Of a DNA stretch of 39,012 nt, positions 9,837 through 32,237 are shown in pieces (the first letter of the stretch is position 1; the number at the start of each line of letters is the position of its first letter). The translations under genes and the position numbers were made by a program. Source of the stretch: a virus; IMG/VR virus record IMGVR_UViG_3300043331_001631, positions 1 to 39,012 of that record. One strand, written 5' to 3'. The notes beneath the pieces are model-generated. The model did not search any database. It saw nothing but the letters and a program-made list of their open reading frames with translations, and was not told where the DNA came from.

Positions 9837-11078
9837 CTACGGCGTCACCGTGACGTTCAACGTCCTGGTGACCGTGCGCCCGGTGTCCGTCGTCACCGTG
9901 ACCGACACCGCATAGAAGGCACTCGCCGTGTACGTCCGGCTCGCGACCGGCACCACCGTGGCGATGTCGTCGGTGACCCCTGGCTCGAAATCCCATTCGT
10001 ACGCCACGATCGCGTCGCCGTCGAGATTGGTCACATCCACCCGGAAATCCACCGGGACGTTGACGCGCGCCGGCAGCGCCGACGTAACCACCAGCGTCGC
10101 GCCGAGCGTCGGCCGCACGGCGGTGATCGTCGCTTGCGCTGACGCCGTCCGCCCATCGGCCGTGGTCACCGTCACGCTCACCGGCGTCGCCCCCTCCGGG
10201 AACCGCTGGACGGGCATGGCCACGGTGGTCGAGGTCACGCCGGTCCAGACGTAGCCGGTGATCGCCGGCGGCGCCGAGTTGTCGCTGTGCCTCAGCGTGA
10301 CGCTGAGCGACACGTTGTCCGCCGTCGTCGGCGCGGCCGGCGTCGCGGTGATGGACGCCGTCAGCGTCGGGCGCTCGACGCCGATGCTGCTCGAGGCCGT
10401 CACCGTCTTTCCGTTGGCTGTCGTGACGGTCACGCTCACGGGATAGGTGCCGGGCGTCGCGAAGGTCACGACCGGCGCCGCGGCCGTGCTCGTGCCAGCC
10501 GCGCCGAAATCCCAGGCATACGTTGAGATCGCCGGCGGTGTGGACGCGTCGCTGTAGCGGAGCGTGGCGGAGAAGGTGACCGGCGTGGTCGTCAGCGGGG
10601 CCGTGGGCGTCGCGGCGATCGTCGCCGTCAGCGTCGGTTCCGGAGTCGGGGCCGGCGGGCGCGGCGTGGACGGCGGCGGCGGCAGCTGGGGCACCGCGAT
10701 CTTGACCGTGCTGGTCCCGACGACCTCGCCGGCGCGCGCCGTGATCGTCGCGTCGCTCGTGCCCGTCCAGTTCACCCTGGCGTGGCCGGTCTGGTCGGTC
10801 GTGACCTCGCCCGCGTCGAGCTCGCCTCCGCTCGCCGTCAGCGTGACCCGGGCGTTCGGCGCCACCTGGCTCGTGCCGACGACCGTCTCGATCCGGACGA
10901 TCGCCGTGCCGCCCCCGACCGGGAGCTCGGCCGGCGAGACGACCAGGTTGATGCGGGTCGGCACCGCCGGCACGGCCGCCGTCGGGGCGAGCGGCGAGGC
11001 CGGGTTCGGCATCGGCCCGTCGCAGGCCGCCGCCATCAGGCACACGAATATCGACCACGACGAAAAGGCCTGTCGCAT
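9837..11078 (-). CDS. Surface lipoprotein with Big-1-like and three PKD domains
   Basis: 413 residues on the minus strand with ribosome site GAGGAGA. The lipobox LMAAAC gives lipidated Cys19. A Big-1-like domain (about 43-131: INLVVSPAELPVGGG, ARVTLTASGGEL) is followed by a proline-rich hinge and three PKD-type repeats, each starting with a LTA.I.ATPAAPTT-like strand and two carrying a Y.WDF turn (YAWDFGAAG, YEWDFEPGV). Such proteins bind surfaces or act as adhesins. It is convergent with the lysis genes and not needed for a virion, so lysogenic conversion or superinfection exclusion is the likely role. Confidence 0.75.
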   Translation of the reverse strand: MRQAFSSWSIFVCLMAAACDGPMPNPASPLAPTAAVPAVPTRINLVVSPAELPVGGGTAIVRIETVVGTSQVAPNARVTLTASGGELDAGEVTTDQTGHARVNWTGTSDATITARAGEVVGTSTVKIAVPQLPPPPSTPRPPAPTPEPTLTATIAATPTAPLTTTPVTFSATLRYSDASTPPAISTYAWDFGAAGTSTAAAPVVTFATPGTYPVSVTVTTANGKTVTASSSIGVERPTLTASITATPAAPTTADNVSLSVTLRHSDNSAPPAITGYVWTGVTSTTVAMPVQRFPEGATPVSVTVTTADGRTASAQATITAVRPTLGATLVVTSALPARVNVPVDFRVDVTNLDGDAIVAYEWDFEPGVTDDIATVVPVASRTYTASAFYAVSVTVTTDTGRTVTRTLNVTVTP

Positions 11079-19447: not shown

Positions 19448-19666
19448 GTGAGAACGATCAGACTCACCGAACGTGCCGGCCGCTGCCGATGGTGTGGCTG
19501 CACGTACCACGAACCGTGCGCCGCCGGATGCGGCTGGGCCAACCGACAGCAGACCCTGTGCACCGAGTGCGTGCCAATCGACCGGGCAATGCAGACGGCG
19601 TCCGGCCGCCGCGAGCTCGCCGAGTTCACACAGGAGCACGGGTTCCTCCAGGCGGTGACGCGATGA
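19448..19666 (+). CDS. Cys-rich protein, first of a paralogous pair
   Basis: 72 residues from a GTG with GAGGAGGT upstream. CRWCGCTYHEPCAAGCGWAN, then QQTLCTECVPID, gives seven Cys and a likely two-zinc fold. A paralogue with the same scaffold (CRLCGCT...GCSWANQQQTLC) is at 24090. It overlaps the DnaA-like/RepA gene by ATGA, so it is translated with the replication protein. Confidence 0.65.
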   Translation: MRTIRLTERAGRCRWCGCTYHEPCAAGCGWANRQQTLCTECVPIDRAMQTASGRRELAEFTQEHGFLQAVTR

Positions 19667-21009
19667 GTGACATCTGGACGGAGGTCCTGTCCCATGTGGA
19701 GAACCTCGTCGAGCGTCGCGTCTACCACGAGTACTTCGCGCAGTCGGCCCTGGTGTCGGACAACGGCGCGTTGGTGGTTCATGTGCCGTCGCCCCACGTG
19801 GGCACGTGGATCGCGAAGCACTACCGCAAGGAGATCAAAGCGGCGCTGGCCCGCGTCGGACGCCAGGGCGGGAAGGTCCGGTTCGTCGTGGGGACCGTCA
19901 ACCGCCCAACTCAGCCGACACCCCCGGTCGCACCTGAGGAGGCCAGCAACGGGGGCGTCCCGCTCGTCAAGCGCCCCAACCTGCAGCGCCTGTCCGACAT
20001 TCGGGCCGAGGCCACGAAATATCTGTGGAAGCCGCGGTTCGCGGTCGGCAAGGTGAACCTGATCATCGGGGACCCAGGCCTGGGCAAGAGCTTCATCGCG
20101 CTCGACGTCGCGGCACGCGTCACCGCCGGCAAGCCGTGGCCGGACGGCTCGCCCGGTCCGGAGCCCGGCGAGGTCATCGCGCTCTGTGGCGAGGACTCCT
20201 ACGCCGACACAGTGCGGCCGCGCATCGACAAGCTCGGAGGCGACGCGCACTTCTTCAGGCCCTTGCGGACCGTCGGCGCCGGCACGCGCTCGCGCGGCAT
20301 CCAACTCGCCGACATCGAGGCCCTGGCGATCGCGATCAGGGAGTCGCGGCCGCGGATGCTGATCATCGACCCGATCAGCGCCTATCTCGGCACCGTGGAC
20401 TCGCACCGCGACTCGGAGGTCCGAGGCCTGCTGGCACCAATCGCCCAACTCGCCGAAGAGCACGCGATCGCCGTCGTCGGCGTCATGCACCTGTCGAAGA
20501 ACACACAGCGCCAGGCGATCTACCGGGCCAGCGGCTCGATCGCCTTCACCGCCGCCGCGCGCATCGTGCACGCCGTCGCGCCGGACGATGCCGTCCATGG
20601 CCGCCGGGTCTTCATGACGGTGAAGTCGAACGTGTCGGCGCTGCCGCCTTCGCTCGCGTTCACGCTGAAGGACGGCCGCCTGGCCTGGGAGACCGAGCCG
20701 ATCAAGAGCATCGACTGCGAGTCGCTTCTCGCCGGCGCTGAGGAGAGTCGGGCCGAACGCAGCGACGCCGATCGGTTGCTCAAGGTACTCCTGAAGGACG
20801 CGTCGCAGATCGACGCGAAGGTGATGAAGGAGGCGGGAGAGGCCGCGGTGATCAGCCCGCGGACAATGCGGCGCGCCGCGGTTCGGTTGGGCCTGACTCC
20901 GAAGCGAGTGGGCGGGGCCGGAGCTGATGGGCGGTGGGTCTGGGTGCGGTCGAGGGCGACGACGAAGGCTATGTGGACACCCCCGCGGAGGGCCCCTAGG
21001 AGCAATTAA
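19663..21009 (+). CDS. RepA-type replicative ATPase with DnaA domain I-like N-terminus
   Basis: 448 residues. Residues 1-80 (IWTEVLSHVENLVERRVYHE, LVVHVPSPHVGTWIAKHYRK, KVRFVVG) follow the DnaA N-terminal domain pattern of W..VL..., then a strand, VP......W....Y...I..AL and a closing VRFVV strand. A linker (85-110) leads to a RecA-like AAA domain with Walker A GDPGLGKS (Lys142) and Walker B LIIDP (Asp236), as in RepA/AAA_25 helicases. The end (SPRTMRRAAVRLGLTPKRVG and a W-rich wing) is a winged helix. It probably loads or acts as the helicase at the adjacent repeat array. DnaA domain I itself recruits DnaB and does not bind DNA. Confidence 0.8.
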   Translation: MSDIWTEVLSHVENLVERRVYHEYFAQSALVSDNGALVVHVPSPHVGTWIAKHYRKEIKAALARVGRQGGKVRFVVGTVNRPTQPTPPVAPEEASNGGVPLVKRPNLQRLSDIRAEATKYLWKPRFAVGKVNLIIGDPGLGKSFIALDVAARVTAGKPWPDGSPGPEPGEVIALCGEDSYADTVRPRIDKLGGDAHFFRPLRTVGAGTRSRGIQLADIEALAIAIRESRPRMLIIDPISAYLGTVDSHRDSEVRGLLAPIAQLAEEHAIAVVGVMHLSKNTQRQAIYRASGSIAFTAAARIVHAVAPDDAVHGRRVFMTVKSNVSALPPSLAFTLKDGRLAWETEPIKSIDCESLLAGAEESRAERSDADRLLKVLLKDASQIDAKVMKEAGEAAVISPRTMRRAAVRLGLTPKRVGGAGADGRWVWVRSRATTKAMWTPPRRAPRSN

Positions 21010-21082
21010 CTGTCCACATAGTCCACATAGCAAATCTGGAGCAATTTTGCGCGTTTTTGGCGCTATGTGGACATGTGGACAG
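20969..21082. other. Candidate replication origin: DnaA-box-like repeat array
   Basis: Copies of TGTGGACA or its complement TGTCCACA lie at 20969-20979, 21011-21021, 21063-21073 and 21072-21082, with a related AGTCCACATAG at 21020-21030. The pairs at 21011-21030 and 21063-21082 form an inverted repeat around an AT-richer core (21031-21062: AAAT, AATTTT, GTTTTT). Each TGTCCACA box is one base from TTGTCCACA, the DnaA box of GC-rich bacteria. It follows the replication ATPase gene directly. I see nothing else in this gap. Confidence 0.65.
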
Positions 21083-21113: not shown

Positions 21114-21497
21114 GTGAACGGCCGAGGCCTCAGCCTCTCACGCACCGAAGCGCGACATCTCGCCGAGCACCTGCGCGCCGGCCATTTCGGCTGGTGTCCC
21201 GCGTGCGAGCAGATCGCGCGGCTTCTGGACAAGGCTGCGGCCGAGCACGCGCGGCCTGTCCGGAAATCCGAGGCGGAGTTGCTGCTATTGGAGCTTCTCG
21301 GAGATGCGAGGTCGATCCCCGCGATCAGGGCCTATGAGGCCGCGGCCTCCCGCCAGATCAGCCCGAAGACTATGTTCCGCGCGGCCGTTCGACTGCACAT
21401 GCGATCGCAGCGCGTGGGTGGCTCGACGGGGTACTGGGAATGGCGTCGCACGCCGGGTACCCCGCGACCGGAGCCGATGGAGAAGACGGCTCAGTAG
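21114..21497 (+). CDS. Small protein carrying a second copy of the RepA C-terminal winged helix
   Basis: 127 residues from a GTG with AAGGAGGGAG upstream. The start has a CPAC knuckle in a helical context (RAGHFGWCPACEQIARLLDK). The C-terminus reads SPKTMFRAAVRLHMRSQRVG, then YWEWRR, matching the upstream ATPase end SPRTMRRAAVRLGLTPKRVG, then RWVWVRS. It sits directly behind the repeat array, so an accessory origin-binding factor is the best guess. Confidence 0.6.
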   Translation: MNGRGLSLSRTEARHLAEHLRAGHFGWCPACEQIARLLDKAAAEHARPVRKSEAELLLLELLGDARSIPAIRAYEAAASRQISPKTMFRAAVRLHMRSQRVGGSTGYWEWRRTPGTPRPEPMEKTAQ

Positions 21498-21543: not shown

Positions 21544-21578
<35 letters not shown>

Positions 21579-21905: not shown

Positions 21906-22280
21906 ATGACCGACAAGGATAGGACTCCGGGCTATCCGGACCGCTTCGAGCGGCAGCTCGGCCTGCTGCACGGACTGCCCGACGTCGTCGAAACGAAGCC
22001 CACGACGATCCGCTACATCGAGCCGCTGCTCGGCACCTCGCAGACGTTCATCCTGCAGACCGTGCGGCAGCGGGAGGTGGGCGATCACTTGTTCCTCGAA
22101 TACGTCGATGCCGAGGGCAGTCAGCGGCTGGTGATTCCGCCCAAGGTGGTCGAGGTGATCGCCCGGCAGCGAGAGGCGCTGACGAAGAGCGCGCAGCGCA
22201 AGCATGGGAGGCGCGTCGCCGCCGAGCGGAAGGCGCGCGGCGAGTCGCCCGGGTTTCTGCGACGGGCCAGCGGCGAATGA
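21906..22280 (+). CDS. Conserved-looking phage protein before HerA-like gene
   Basis: 124 residues with AGGAGG before the ATG. TIRYIEPLLGTSQTFILQTV, then RQREVGDHLFLEYVDAEGSQ and RLVIPPKV, is a pattern I have seen in phages of GC-rich hosts next to ATPase genes. It ends in a basic tail. It overlaps the HerA-like gene by ATGA, so the two are likely partners. Confidence 0.6.
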   Translation: MTDKDRTPGYPDRFERQLGLLHGLPDVVETKPTTIRYIEPLLGTSQTFILQTVRQREVGDHLFLEYVDAEGSQRLVIPPKVVEVIARQREALTKSAQRKHGRRVAAERKARGESPGFLRRASGE

Positions 22281-24079
22281 AGCTCCAGATCGGTGAGGAC
22301 CTCGCGCTCCCCGCGGCGGCCGTCACGGAGGTCATAGGCTTTCTTGGCCGCCGCGGCCAGGGGAAGTCGTACGCCGCGCAGCGGCTCGCCGAACTGCTCT
22401 ACGAGGCCAAGGCGCCGTTCGTCGTGCTCGACCCGGTGGGCAACTGGTGGGGTCTGCGCCTGGCGGCCAACGGGAAGGCGCCCGGCATCGAGATCCCGGT
22501 GTTCGGAGGCCTGCACGGGGACGTCCCGCTCGAGCCGACAGCGGGCAAGCTGATCGCCGACGTCATCGTCGACCGCGGGATCTCGGCCGTTCTCGACGTG
22601 AGCCAGTTCGAGTCCGACGCCGATCGCGCGCGGTTCGCGCACGACTTCGGCGCGCGCTTCTACTACCGCCGCAAGCTGGCGCCGGCGGCCGTGCACGTCT
22701 TCCTCGAGGAGGCCCAGGAGTTCGTCCCGCAGAACCCGATGGGCGAGGAAAAGCGGGTGCTCCATGTCTTTCAGCGCCTCGCGAAGCTCGGACGGAACTA
22801 CGGCATCGGCGTGTCGCTCATCAGCCAACGGCCGCAGGAGGTGAACAAGAAGGTCCTGAACCTCACGGAGCTGCTCTTCGTGTTCCAGCTCACGGGGCCG
22901 CACGAGCGCAAGGCGGTCGAGGGCTGGATTGCGGAGAAGGGCATCGACGAGGACATCAACGCGGAGCTCCCGAAGCTCCAGCGCGGCAAGCCGCACGCCT
23001 GGTCGCCGGCCTGGCTGAACATCTCGCGCGTCGTCAGCATCACGGCGAAGGGGACGTTCGACGCGTCCAGCACGCCGAAGGTGGGTGCGGCCGCGAAGGC
23101 CAAGGAGCTCGCGCCGATCGACCTCGAGCAGCTCGCCAAGGACATGGCCGCGACGATCGAGCGCGCCAAGGCCGAGGATCCGCGCGAGCTGCGGAAGGAG
23201 ATCGCCCGGCTGAAGGGAGAGCTCGCCGCGCGCAACCGCACGCTCGACCAGGTCGACAAGCAAACGAAGCGCATCGAGTCCAAGCTCGCGAAGGCGCCGC
23301 CGCGCGTCGTTGAGAAGCCAGTCCTGAAGGACGGACAGCTCAAACGGGCCGAACAACTCATCGACCGGATCAACAAGCTGCACGACGGCTTCCGTCTGCA
23401 GGTGGAGGCGCTCGTCTATGCCGGCAAAGAACTCGAAGCGGCCATCGGTCGGACGCGCGTCGATGACGCGCGAGGACTACATGATCGAGGCGCACTGGCT
23501 GGAGGAGTCAGCGAAGTTCGTCACGCGAACGGAACCGGGGTCCGAACGCAAAGCCGCGTGGTATCGGAAGCTCGCCAGGCTGCTGGTGTACGCCGACGCG
23601 AACCTGCCGCCCGGGCTGCCGCGCTCGGAAAGGGCGAGCGCATCATCCTCCGGGCGGTCGCGCAGTACCCGGAGGGCGCGTCGCGCGAGCAGCTCACGGT
23701 CCTGACCGGTTACAAGCGTTCGAGCCGGGATGCCTATCTGCAACGGCTCCAATCCGCCGGGCTCGTCGAGCAGAACGGAACCGGCCTGCACGCCACCGAC
23801 GCGGGCCTCGCGCTCCTGGGGGATGACTTCGAGCCGTTGCCGACCGGCGCGGCGCTCCTGGCCTATTGGCTCGATCGGCTGAGCGGCGGTGAGCGCGTGA
23901 TCCTCGAGGCGCTGACTGCCGGCCGAACCGCGCCGGCGTGGGTCTCGCGCGACGAGGTCAGCGCTCAGAGCAGCTACGCGCGGTCGTCACGCGACGCGTA
24001 CATCCAGCGACTGCAGGCGCGCCGGCTCGTCGTCGCGGACCGCGGCCAGGTGCGCGCGGCCGACGCGCTGTTTGATTGA
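22277..24079 (+). CDS. HerA/FtsK-like ATPase with tandem winged helices
   Basis: 600 residues. Walker A is GRRGQGKSY (Lys30, Ser31), Walker B-like FLEEAQEF lies near residue 145, and SLISQRPQEV is the HerA-type sensor motif. A coiled coil (about 290-375) follows. The end holds two similar winged-helix units (REQLTVLTGYKRSSRDAYLQ and SAQSSYARSSRDAYIQRLQ). Residues about 395-455 have poor third-position GC and a shadow-like sequence, because another gene seems to use that DNA (23418). Such phage HerA-like proteins are thought to pump or process DNA. Confidence 0.75.
   Translation: MKLQIGEDLALPAAAVTEVIGFLGRRGQGKSYAAQRLAELLYEAKAPFVVLDPVGNWWGLRLAANGKAPGIEIPVFGGLHGDVPLEPTAGKLIADVIVDRGISAVLDVSQFESDADRARFAHDFGARFYYRRKLAPAAVHVFLEEAQEFVPQNPMGEEKRVLHVFQRLAKLGRNYGIGVSLISQRPQEVNKKVLNLTELLFVFQLTGPHERKAVEGWIAEKGIDEDINAELPKLQRGKPHAWSPAWLNISRVVSITAKGTFDASSTPKVGAAAKAKELAPIDLEQLAKDMAATIERAKAEDPRELRKEIARLKGELAARNRTLDQVDKQTKRIESKLAKAPPRVVEKPVLKDGQLKRAEQLIDRINKLHDGFRLQVEALVYAGKELEAAIGRTRVDDARGLHDRGALAGGVSEVRHANGTGVRTQSRVVSEARQAAGVRRREPAARAAALGKGERIILRAVAQYPEGASREQLTVLTGYKRSSRDAYLQRLQSAGLVEQNGTGLHATDAGLALLGDDFEPLPTGAALLAYWLDRLSGGERVILEALTAGRTAPAWVSRDEVSAQSSYARSSRDAYIQRLQARRLVVADRGQVRAADALFD
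23418..23705 (+). CDS. Gene nested out of frame inside the HerA-like gene
   Basis: 95 residues, fully contained in the HerA-like gene in another frame. The start has GGAGG nine bases upstream. In the first 70 residues third positions are mostly G/C, while the host frame's are not, which suggests this frame is the selected one here (MTREDYMIEAHWLEESAKFV, then AAWYRKLARLLVYADANLP). Past about 23630 the pattern swaps back. Either a real overlapping gene or the trace of two compensating frameshifts in the HerA-like gene. Confidence 0.5.
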   Translation: MPAKNSKRPSVGRASMTREDYMIEAHWLEESAKFVTRTEPGSERKAAWYRKLARLLVYADANLPPGLPRSERASASSSGRSRSTRRARRASSSRS

Positions 24080-30001: not shown

Positions 30002-30178
30002 GTGTGGGCGGGACGCTACTGGGCGCCGGCGTACTGGGCCGCGCGGTTCTGGTCGAAAGCCGGCGCCGACGTCGTCCTCGAGCCGACCGTCGTGACGCTG
30101 GCAGGCGCGGCCGTGACGAGCGTGACGCTGACGGCGTCGGCGACGAGCTCCGTGACGCTCGCGGCCTCAGGAGACTGA
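30002..30178 (+). CDS. Small fibre-associated protein with VTLTAS repeats
   Basis: 58 residues from a GTG. The start GRYWAPAYWAARFWSKAGA has the aromatic GRYWAPRYW look of a small structural phage protein. The rest repeats a hexapeptide-like strand (VTLAGA, VTSVTLTASATSSVTLAAS), shared with the next gene. It may form a beta stack in the virion. Confidence 0.5.
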   Translation: MWAGRYWAPAYWAARFWSKAGADVVLEPTVVTLAGAAVTSVTLTASATSSVTLAASGD

Positions 30179-30179
30179 C

Positions 30180-30284
30180 ATGAAGACCGTGACCCTGATA
30201 GCCTCGTGCGTGCGGAGCGTGACGCTGACCGCGTCGATCGCGCCCGCCGTGCAGCTGCAGGCCTCGACGAAGCGAGACGAATAG
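30180..30284 (+). CDS. Tiny VTLTAS-repeat protein
   Basis: 34 residues. It repeats the strand motif of the preceding gene (KTVTLIASCVRSVTLTASIA). The stop is adjacent to the SGNH gene start (TAG then ATG). It could be a partial duplicate of the 30002 gene rather than a separate function. Confidence 0.45.
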   Translation: MKTVTLIASCVRSVTLTASIAPAVQLQASTKRDE

Positions 30285-32237
30285 ATGGCACGCGAAGCGA
30301 ACATCACGAAGGACCACGACTTCTTCACCGGGACGGATTATACGATCAAGTTCCCGGTGACGCAGGCCGACGGCGTCACGCCGGAGGACGTCTCGAGCTG
30401 GGCGCTGTCCTGGGTGCTGAAGAAGCGGAAGACGGACGCCGACGCGGACGCGAAGGTGTCGCGTGTGACGGGCGGCGGCGGCATCGTGATCAGCGGGGTC
30501 TACAACGTCGACCCCGACGTCAATACGCAGCTCGTCGAGGTGCTCGTCGCCGACTCGCACACGTTCGACCTGCCGGCTGGCTCGTACTACCACGAGCTGA
30601 AGCGGACGGACGAAGGGTCAGAGACCGTGCTCGCGTACGGGACCGTCGCGCTGCAGAAGTCGGCGCACGGGGACGGCGGGTTCCCCCTGGATCCGGTGGA
30701 CATCCCGCCCGGGGGCGATCACCTGCGCCTCGTCCAGCGCGACCACACCGTGCCTGGCGGCCTCTCGTACACCGATGCGCCGACGGTCAAGGGCACGAAC
30801 CTTAGCGAAGTTCCGACATCGGCGCTCACGGGCACGCTGCCGGATGCCGTGTTCCCGGCGACGTTGCCGGAGGCGAGCGCGGCCAATCTCACGAACGTCC
30901 CAGCAGCACAACTCACCGGTGCCCTCCCGACGCTCTCCGGCATCGCACTGACGGGTCTGCGTGACGCGATCGGCAGCCGCGCGTGTGCGCCGCTGACGGC
31001 GGCACTCGACGCGGGACAGTCGACGGCGTTCACGGTGCTCGGCGACAGCACGGGAAACGATGTCACTGACTGGGTGTACGTGCTGGCGCAGTCCCTCGCG
31101 GCGCGATACCCCAATCACACGGTGCGGCATCGTCTGTGGACCGATGCCACACAAGCCTATGCGGCTCCGACGGTGCTCCAAACAGGGCCGGCCGGCGAGC
31201 GTTACGTGAATTCGGCTGGCGCGACGGTCATCCTGGCACCAGAGGACGTCGGCAGCCTTCCCGGCGATGCTGATATTCGACTGCGGGTACTCCCTGACGA
31301 TTGGACGCCTAGCGCGAACGCGAACTTCCTGTCGCGGTGGGCCACAGGCAAACTGAGCCGGCGGCTGATGCTGCTGACAAACGCGAAGTTGCACTACCAA
31401 ATTTCTCGCGACGGTACGACGGCAGATACCGCGGCCCAGTCCAGCGTGGCCGTCTCAGACCCTGGTGCCGGCGTCCCTCTGTGGGTCCGCGTCACCCACA
31501 ACACGACCACTGGGGCGGTGAACTTCTACACGTCATCCGACGGCGTGACGTACAGTGCGCTCGGCACCCAGCAGACGATCACGGCGGGCGTGCCCTTCGA
31601 CCCCGACGACGATGCGTACGACCCGGTGGTGAGTTCGGTGACCGATCAGTGGGTCCTCGGTGCATCGTTTTCGGGTCGGATCTACGAGGCTGAGATCCGG
31701 AACGGGATCGATGGGCCATGCGTCAACCCTCGGCCGATTGACGCGTGGGAGGCCCTCGCAGACGGAGTCTTCGCTGGAGCCCCTGTGTTGGATGTCGTCA
31801 ACGCGTCCCACCCGGGTGCGACCCTCGCGTACTTTCTCGATGCGACCCGTCAACCGAAGGTGTTGCAGAACTTCCGCCAAGCGCTGACGCTCGTGAACAT
31901 CGGACACAATCAGGCAGGCCTGCGAGGGCAGGGATTTGCGGAGTACTACGGCTCCCTTCTTGCGGCTGTCCAGGCTCGTCTCCCGATGACCAACGTCGTC
32001 GTGGTGACCCAGAACCCGAAGGTCGCGCCGGCGACGCACATCCTGGCGCACTCGCTCCGACTGCAGCAGATTCACAGCTACGCGCAGGCCCACGGTTATG
32101 ACGTGATTGACGTGTATCGCCACTTCGCTGCGCACGAGGACTTGGCGTCTCTCATGTCGGCTGACGGCATCCATCCCAACGCGACCGGCGGTGCGTTCTG
32201 GGCCAATGTGGTGGGGAACGTGCTGGAGAAGAGCTGA
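30285..32237 (+). CDS. SGNH-hydrolase tail fibre / depolymerase with inserted LamG-like domain
   Basis: 650 residues. Residues 1-125 look like a BppU-type attachment domain (FFTGTDYTIKFPVTQADG). A linker with TNVPAAQLTGALPTL motifs follows. The catalytic part has SGNH blocks: FTVLGDSTGND (Ser255), NIGHNQAG (Asn/His) and DGIHPNATG (Asp627, His630). Between them a lectin-like insert is seen (FLSRWATGKLSRRLMLLTN, WVRVTHNTTTGAVNFYTSSD, SGRIYEAEIRNGIDG). SGNH enzymes remove acyl groups from surface glycans, so this is probably a receptor-modifying fibre tip. Confidence 0.8.
   Translation: MAREANITKDHDFFTGTDYTIKFPVTQADGVTPEDVSSWALSWVLKKRKTDADADAKVSRVTGGGGIVISGVYNVDPDVNTQLVEVLVADSHTFDLPAGSYYHELKRTDEGSETVLAYGTVALQKSAHGDGGFPLDPVDIPPGGDHLRLVQRDHTVPGGLSYTDAPTVKGTNLSEVPTSALTGTLPDAVFPATLPEASAANLTNVPAAQLTGALPTLSGIALTGLRDAIGSRACAPLTAALDAGQSTAFTVLGDSTGNDVTDWVYVLAQSLAARYPNHTVRHRLWTDATQAYAAPTVLQTGPAGERYVNSAGATVILAPEDVGSLPGDADIRLRVLPDDWTPSANANFLSRWATGKLSRRLMLLTNAKLHYQISRDGTTADTAAQSSVAVSDPGAGVPLWVRVTHNTTTGAVNFYTSSDGVTYSALGTQQTITAGVPFDPDDDAYDPVVSSVTDQWVLGASFSGRIYEAEIRNGIDGPCVNPRPIDAWEALADGVFAGAPVLDVVNASHPGATLAYFLDATRQPKVLQNFRQALTLVNIGHNQAGLRGQGFAEYYGSLLAAVQARLPMTNVVVVTQNPKVAPATHILAHSLRLQQIHSYAQAHGYDVIDVYRHFAAHEDLASLMSADGIHPNATGGAFWANVVGNVLEKS

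Follow-up and report, generated by a model that had tools for sequence, protein, structure and literature searches.

A DnaA domain I fused to a RepA-type helicase beside a candidate iteron origin in a metagenomic virus contig

Introduction

Fusions of a primase, a RepA-type helicase and a winged helix are known in mobile genetic elements, in the PrimPol-PV1 supergroup (PMC5862659). In plasmid pRN1, an essential stem-loop element of the origin is located just behind orf904, the gene for a winged-helix replication protein (PMC4234260). Domain I of the bacterial initiator DnaA is a protein hub, with DnaB, DiaA, SirA, HobA and others among its partners, and it dimerises in E. coli and in Actinomycetes (PMC5448010, PMC13270200). 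The route by which domain I leads from origin binding to helicase recruitment is unsettled, and its partners vary between phyla.

Here we show that a gene in the metagenomic virus contig IMGVR_UViG_3300043331_001631, analysed as a single stretch of 39,012 nt (the window), encodes a DnaA domain I in front of a RepA-type helicase. The fusion is real and apparently rare, and the encoded protein, which is predicted to unwind DNA, is a new variant among RepA-type initiator-helicases. With domain I covalently attached to a helicase, the protein is a natural construct, so that the recruitment question becomes directly testable.

Results

Genomic setting

Domain scans of the window identified an integrase, a terminase, a portal, a prohead protease and tail genes, and the window therefore most likely represents a temperate tailed phage. 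It has no nucleotide-level match to phage records and no Rfam match anywhere along its length. No primase domain was found among the scanned phage genes, so that host priming is probably required.

Several other features of the window were recorded. A tail-fibre-like protein (30285-32237) has a GDSL lipase/esterase domain at its C-terminal end, and the opposite strand encodes a protein with PKD domains (9837-11078, minus strand). Two clusters of repeats were detected, tandem GGCAGGCA at 21545-21578 and four spaced copies of CGTGACGCT at 30091-30226. A HerA/FtsK-like ATPase with a winged-helix C-terminus (22277-24079; weak matches to DUF87 and an IclR-like HTH) has 16 relatives in viral contigs, in records without the helicase described below. 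No match to that helicase was found in the records that share the HerA-like gene (L180-L195 except L189) or in the five terminase-sharing records tested out of L004-L012.

Organization of the fusion gene

The gene consists of the following parts, listed with the evidence for each.

19663..21009, plus strand: whole gene, encoding DnaA domain I, linker, RepA-type motor and winged helix, 448 aa (open reading frame, Pfam, structure model)
19663..19896, plus strand: DnaA domain I, residues 1-78 (PF11638, held-out DnaA profile, fold)
19897..19974, plus strand: proline-rich, low-confidence linker, residues 79-104 (pLDDT 43-54 in the model; sequence)
19975..20697, plus strand: RepA-type RecA-fold motor, residues 105-345 (PF13481; fold compared with RSF1010 RepA, 1olo)
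20068..20091, plus strand: Walker A motif GDPGLGKS, residues 136-143 (sequence; conserved among relatives)
20356..20373, plus strand: Walker B motif including Asp236 (sequence; Asp236 invariant)
20710..20952, plus strand: C-terminal winged helix, residues 350-430 (secondary structure of the model; helix-turn-helix alignment with relatives)

The linker is placed like domain II of DnaA. The ATG start codon of the gene shares the sequence ATGA with the stop codon of the upstream ORF. This overlap resembles that in a coupled operon and speaks against a chimeric start. Third-position GC is alike in the three parts of the fusion gene (0.87, 0.92 and 0.84). Window positions 19448-19666 encode a small cysteine-rich protein with several CxxC motifs that is translationally coupled to the helicase and for which no family match was found.

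The N-terminal domain is a DnaA domain I

A first-pass annotation of this DNA, made from the sequence alone, had proposed a RepA-type ATPase whose N-terminus follows the pattern of DnaA domain I, and both profile comparisons and the modelled fold bear this out. Residues 3-63 match PF11638 (DnaA_N) with a score of 34.6 bits (E 1.6e-8); the curated cut-off is 24.6, and host DnaAs, found in 13 of the 16 genomes searched, span 22-69 bits. Our own profile, built from 13 bacterial DnaAs with the window sequence excluded, scores the window protein at 44-45 bits, compared with 24-33 bits for four DnaAs from viral contigs. The full-length DnaA model TIGR00362 (NCBIfam) gives 25.2 bits, far below its cut-off of 343.9, and the AAA+ domain III and DNA-binding domain IV of a full DnaA initiator are absent from the window protein.

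The modelled domain has the topology helix-helix-strand-strand-helix-strand of a KH-like fold, and its closest solved structure is domain I of B. subtilis DnaA (4tps; Foldseek E 4.9e-4; Z 13.2, rmsd 1.7 over 77 residues). Domain I of H. pylori DnaA (2wp0) and that of E. coli DnaA (2e0g) align with Z 10.6 and Z 8.8, respectively. The next fold relatives include DciA (Z 7.5 and 6.9), with unrelated KH-like folds in the same range. The confidence of the model is moderate (mean pLDDT 67), and since four DnaA domain I sequences were present in its alignment, its support is not entirely separate from the sequence evidence. The structural check suggested in the first-pass annotation thus returned the DnaA domain I fold, together with a significant DnaA_N match, and no different fold.

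Against phage and plasmid records, the N-terminal domain has weak matches only, the best of these being a bacterial dnaA gene in a phage-labelled record. The record MT839132.1 (L003), labelled Bacteriophage sp., contains a bacterial dnaA-dnaN region and is likely mislabelled. Some viral contigs (L198, L199, L200 and L209) encode a DnaA with a recognisable domain I; in others (L197 and L201-L208), the DnaA core is present and domain I is absent.

An intact RepA-type motor with an exchangeable front end

Residues 114-281 match AAA_25 (PF13481) with 107.9 bits. The Walker A and B motifs are intact, as annotated previously, with GDPGLGKS and Asp236 retained; Glu177, His276, Arg300 and Lys321 are also present and, like Asp236, are invariant or nearly so among the relatives. 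The best fold match of the motor is RSF1010 RepA (Z 22.3, rmsd 3.3 over 219 residues), with the remaining RecA-fold helicases at Z 20-21. By its sequence and its model, this is an intact RecA-fold motor of the RepA/RSF1010 type, predicted to form a hexamer and to unwind DNA in an ATP-dependent manner.

Searches of phage and plasmid sequences, viral contigs and genomes, covering 1,980 genomes or records, yielded 168 helicase ORFs at 165 loci. DnaA_N was detected in none of these 168 other ORFs, in line with the earlier remark that the fusion is not a standard family, and the highest score of the DnaA profile anywhere in the loci was 7.5 bits. Peptide-pattern searches of viral and genome contigs retrieved no close relatives. 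Within the 71 proteins (including that of the window) in which the N-terminal slot was assigned with Pfam, it is occupied by DnaB_N in 8, RepB_primase in 8, Toprim_3 in 7 and Prim-Pol in 3, and by DnaA_N in the window protein only. The N-terminal region is shorter than 40 aa, that is, without an N-terminal domain, in 26 of the 168 relatives. Fusions to the DnaB N-terminal domain (PF00772), the best or near-best ones, are found at L027:4476-5978, L099:3506-5203 and L035:4344-5954. By these sequence comparisons, the RepA-type motor is modular, with an exchangeable front end that is often a primase and sometimes a replisome-docking domain. Within the searches made, DnaA domain I is a new occupant of this slot. 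The DnaA_N-AAA_25 fusion is unreported in the open-access literature searched, absence there being no proof.

A candidate origin of five iterons at the end of the gene

Three features go beyond the first-pass annotation, namely, the C-terminal winged helix, the origin-like repeats at the 3' gene end, and a stand-alone winged-helix paralogue adjoining them. The elements in and behind the end of the gene are as follows.

20968..21082, both orientations: iteron array and candidate origin, five GCTATGTGGACA / TGTCCACATAGC-type repeats (repeats, clustering against simulation, family-wide position)
21032..21061, no strand assigned: AT-rich stretch, candidate unwinding element (sequence; low GC)
21114..21497, plus strand: stand-alone winged-helix paralogue with a ribosome-binding site, aaggaggg (46% identity over 80 aa, E 1e-11)

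The array is made up of five TGTCCACATAG-type repeats (20968-20979, 21010-21021, 21021-21031, 21062-21073 and 21073-21082) that flank the AT-rich stretch. The repeat units are TGTCCACA or AGTCCACA, and four of the five are contained within GTCCACATAG. All four copies of TGTCCACA in the 39 kb fall in the array, and four copies within 130 bp were seen in 0 of 1000 simulated sequences. The 60-mer starting at 20997 has the second lowest GC content in the window (0.417 vs 0.69). The locus thus has the layout of an iteron-type replicon, with repeats adjoining the initiator gene and an AT-rich stretch, and the array is likely the origin of phage replication, to which the helicase would bind.

The paralogue begins directly after the array, and its second half copies the winged helix of the helicase; in the recognition-helix region, it has ISPRTMRRAAVRL against ISPKTMFRAAVRL in the helicase. 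This protein may also bind these repeats and have a regulatory role, either in replication or on its own gene; it is a possible co-initiator, too.

Arrays and winged helices across the helicase family

A search for clustered 8-mers showed that relatives of the helicase carry arrays of unrelated sequence at the equivalent place. Varied iteron arrays lie in the last 200 nt of the AAA_25 helicase gene or in the next 200 nt (L023-L130, L144-L173 and L216-L246). Within 200 bp downstream of the helicase gene, at least four repeats were counted at 18 of the 124 loci, compared with 6 of 3577 control stretches (Fisher 9e-23), and at least three repeats at 28 of the 124 loci, compared with 53 of 3577 controls; the control stretches are mostly coding, which limits this test. 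The region upstream of the helicase ORF is the fairer control, and there, at least four repeats were found at none of the 124 loci and at least three at 4. Some in-gene arrays (L121 and L152) look like coding-tail repeats rather than iterons. Restricting the test to the 200 bp downstream avoids these.

A shared family iteron pattern approximates AAGRTKGCCA, and AG...G.CA is found at 15 of 124 loci, compared with 2 of 1200 stretches. Iteron similarity correlates with winged-helix similarity when motor identity is partialled out (Mantel r 0.28, p 0.0004), also when the comparison is limited to arrays of at least four repeats (r 0.28, p 0.006), whereas motor identity is no predictor of iteron similarity (r 0.06). 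The winged helix closest to that of the window protein belongs to L237 (52% over 25 compared residues), and the L237 iteron, CATAGGTGGCCA, is among the closest to GCTATGTGGACA of the window. This co-variation, which is indirect evidence, is most simply explained by binding of the winged helix to the array; the arrays of the family are probably the replication origins of their elements.

More broadly, for many RepA-type helicases encoded by phages, plasmids or integrated elements, the origin appears to lie at the 3' end of the helicase gene itself, in the form of an iteron array. Such an array and the winged helix co-varying with it provide a simple route to origin prediction in uncultured elements.

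Discussion

A model of helicase docking

The fusion suggests that the phage plugs its helicase into the host machinery for starting replication. In the model that we favour, with a probability of roughly 0.5, the protein is an initiator-helicase that binds the iterons at the end of its gene as the origin, unwinds DNA with its motor, and docks onto host initiation proteins through domain I. The C-terminal winged helix would bring the protein to the iteron array, where the RepA-type motor would then unwind the DNA. Domain I would dock the helicase to host initiation proteins, most likely to host DnaA by a domain I-domain I contact or to another domain I partner; Trp5, the counterpart of Trp6 in the E. 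coli dimer face, is kept. The host replisome would assemble at the phage origin, with host priming and synthesis to follow.

A docking role is the most economical one because the N-terminal slot of the relatives holds a primase or the DnaB N-terminal domain. The proposal of the first-pass annotation that a borrowed domain docks the helicase to the host is retained in this general form, by analogy with the relatives; a connection to DnaB by way of the E. coli contacts is not favoured, as detailed below. Two observations weigh against the docking model: the fusion is known from a single instance, and many relatives function without an N-terminal domain. Also against it, domain I may do no more than aid assembly of the ring. 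Because the fusion is seen once only, conservation does not show which face of domain I is in use.

Alternatives

It is possible, albeit doubtful, that domain I recruits host DnaB or acts in the manner of the loader DciA; the phage protein would then be an origin-specific initiator and loader, with the RepA motor opening or remodelling the origin. E. coli domain I does bind DnaB, with Glu21 and Phe46 as contacts (PMC5448010); DciA is among the fold relatives of the modelled domain, although other KH-like folds score alike; and a phage primase was not found among the scanned genes. In the window protein, however, the two contact positions are occupied by Val20 and His45, and direct DnaB docking is accordingly not favoured, which is a lean, not proof. 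The argument is weak because Phe46 is missing in H. pylori too (PMC5448010), such that these contacts are not universal. The presence of an intact hexameric-type motor in the protein itself also speaks against this reading.

A different question is whether the repeats are DnaA boxes. The actinobacterial DnaA box is TT(G/C)TCCACA (PMC4285127), and all five copies in the window match TTNTCCACA at 8 of 9 positions. None of the five is a perfect box. The positions conserved between the copies include the TAG(C) flank and leave out position 1 of the box, and the unit agrees with the family iteron pattern as well (7/10, P 0.05). Among the 43 arrays of relatives, none has two TTNTCCACA-like copies at 8/9, and a scan of 101 relative loci for clusters of DnaA boxes gave one weak case (L033), about as many as expected by chance. 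The view that the repeats are simply DnaA boxes was demoted because unrelated iterons occupy the equivalent position in the relatives.

Two versions of an involvement of host DnaA at the array can be considered. In the first, which we put forward only tentatively, the origin iterons double as DnaA boxes, and host DnaA bound there loads the helicase through a domain I-domain I contact. If true, this would be loader-free recruitment of a hexameric helicase through the self-association domain of the initiator. In the second, which is unlikely, host DnaA binds the array (20968-21082) as a DnaA-box cluster and recruits the helicase via domain I, and the winged helix is not the main binder of the origin. 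The uniform 8/9 matches, unparalleled in the relatives, are in its favour, as is the fact that the sole box-like array belongs to the sole helicase with DnaA_N, but this link was noticed post hoc. The absence of a perfect box, the conservation outside the box, the fit to the family pattern and the unrelated iterons at the equivalent position in relatives that have no DnaA_N speak against it.

Domain I might alternatively be an aid to self-association or a passive relic, with no host partner. Trp5, which aligns with Trp6 of the dimer face in E. coli, is kept, and 26 of the 168 relatives manage with fewer than 40 aa in front of the motor. We consider this reading improbable: in the relatives, the slot is usually occupied by a domain that acts as a functional partner, and a relic is unexpected because domain I still scores well inside the range of true DnaAs. 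Even less probable is a decoy that occupies DnaA or its partners and blocks host initiation. Overexpressed DnaA domain I does block initiation in vivo (PMC13270200), and YfdR, a prophage protein, binds E. coli domain I (PMC5448010), but a decoy has no need of fusion to a replicative motor, and both the architecture and the gene position are those of a replication protein. Finally, an artefactual fusion, caused by chance similarity or by mis-assembly of the contig, is extremely unlikely despite the single known instance and the metagenomic origin of the record, given the independent lines of sequence and fold evidence (with the reservation on the model alignment made above), the ATGA overlap, the uninterrupted frame and the similar third-position GC of the three parts.

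Comparison with known systems

Several described replication proteins each share a part of the architecture of the window protein. RSF1010 RepA (PDB 1g8y, 1nlf and 1olo) and the AAA_25 ATPases of phages and plasmids have the motor fold, the Walker motifs and the catalytic residues in common with it. RSF1010 RepA, however, is a helicase alone, with the primase RepB' and the initiator RepC as separate proteins, whereas in the window, domain I and the winged helix are fused to the motor.

The PrimPol-PV1 fusions share the order of modules, with an N-terminal module followed by a RepA-type motor and by a winged helix that is thought to recognise the origin (PMC5862659). Their N-terminal module is a primase, in place of the DnaA domain I found here, and DnaA is absent from the text of that report (PMC5862659). 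In the fusions of the DnaB N-terminal domain with AAA_25 (L027 and L099), the slot is likewise occupied by a replisome-docking domain, but one derived from DnaB, not from DnaA.

The orf904 protein of pRN1 is similar in being a winged-helix replication protein with an origin element directly downstream of its own gene; it differs in that it combines an archaeo-eukaryotic primase with an SF3 helicase and in that its origin is a stem-loop without iterons. With bacterial DnaA, finally, the window protein shares domain I and a flexible linker, which lead in DnaA to the AAA+ domain III and domain IV and in the window protein to a RecA-fold RepA motor and a winged helix.
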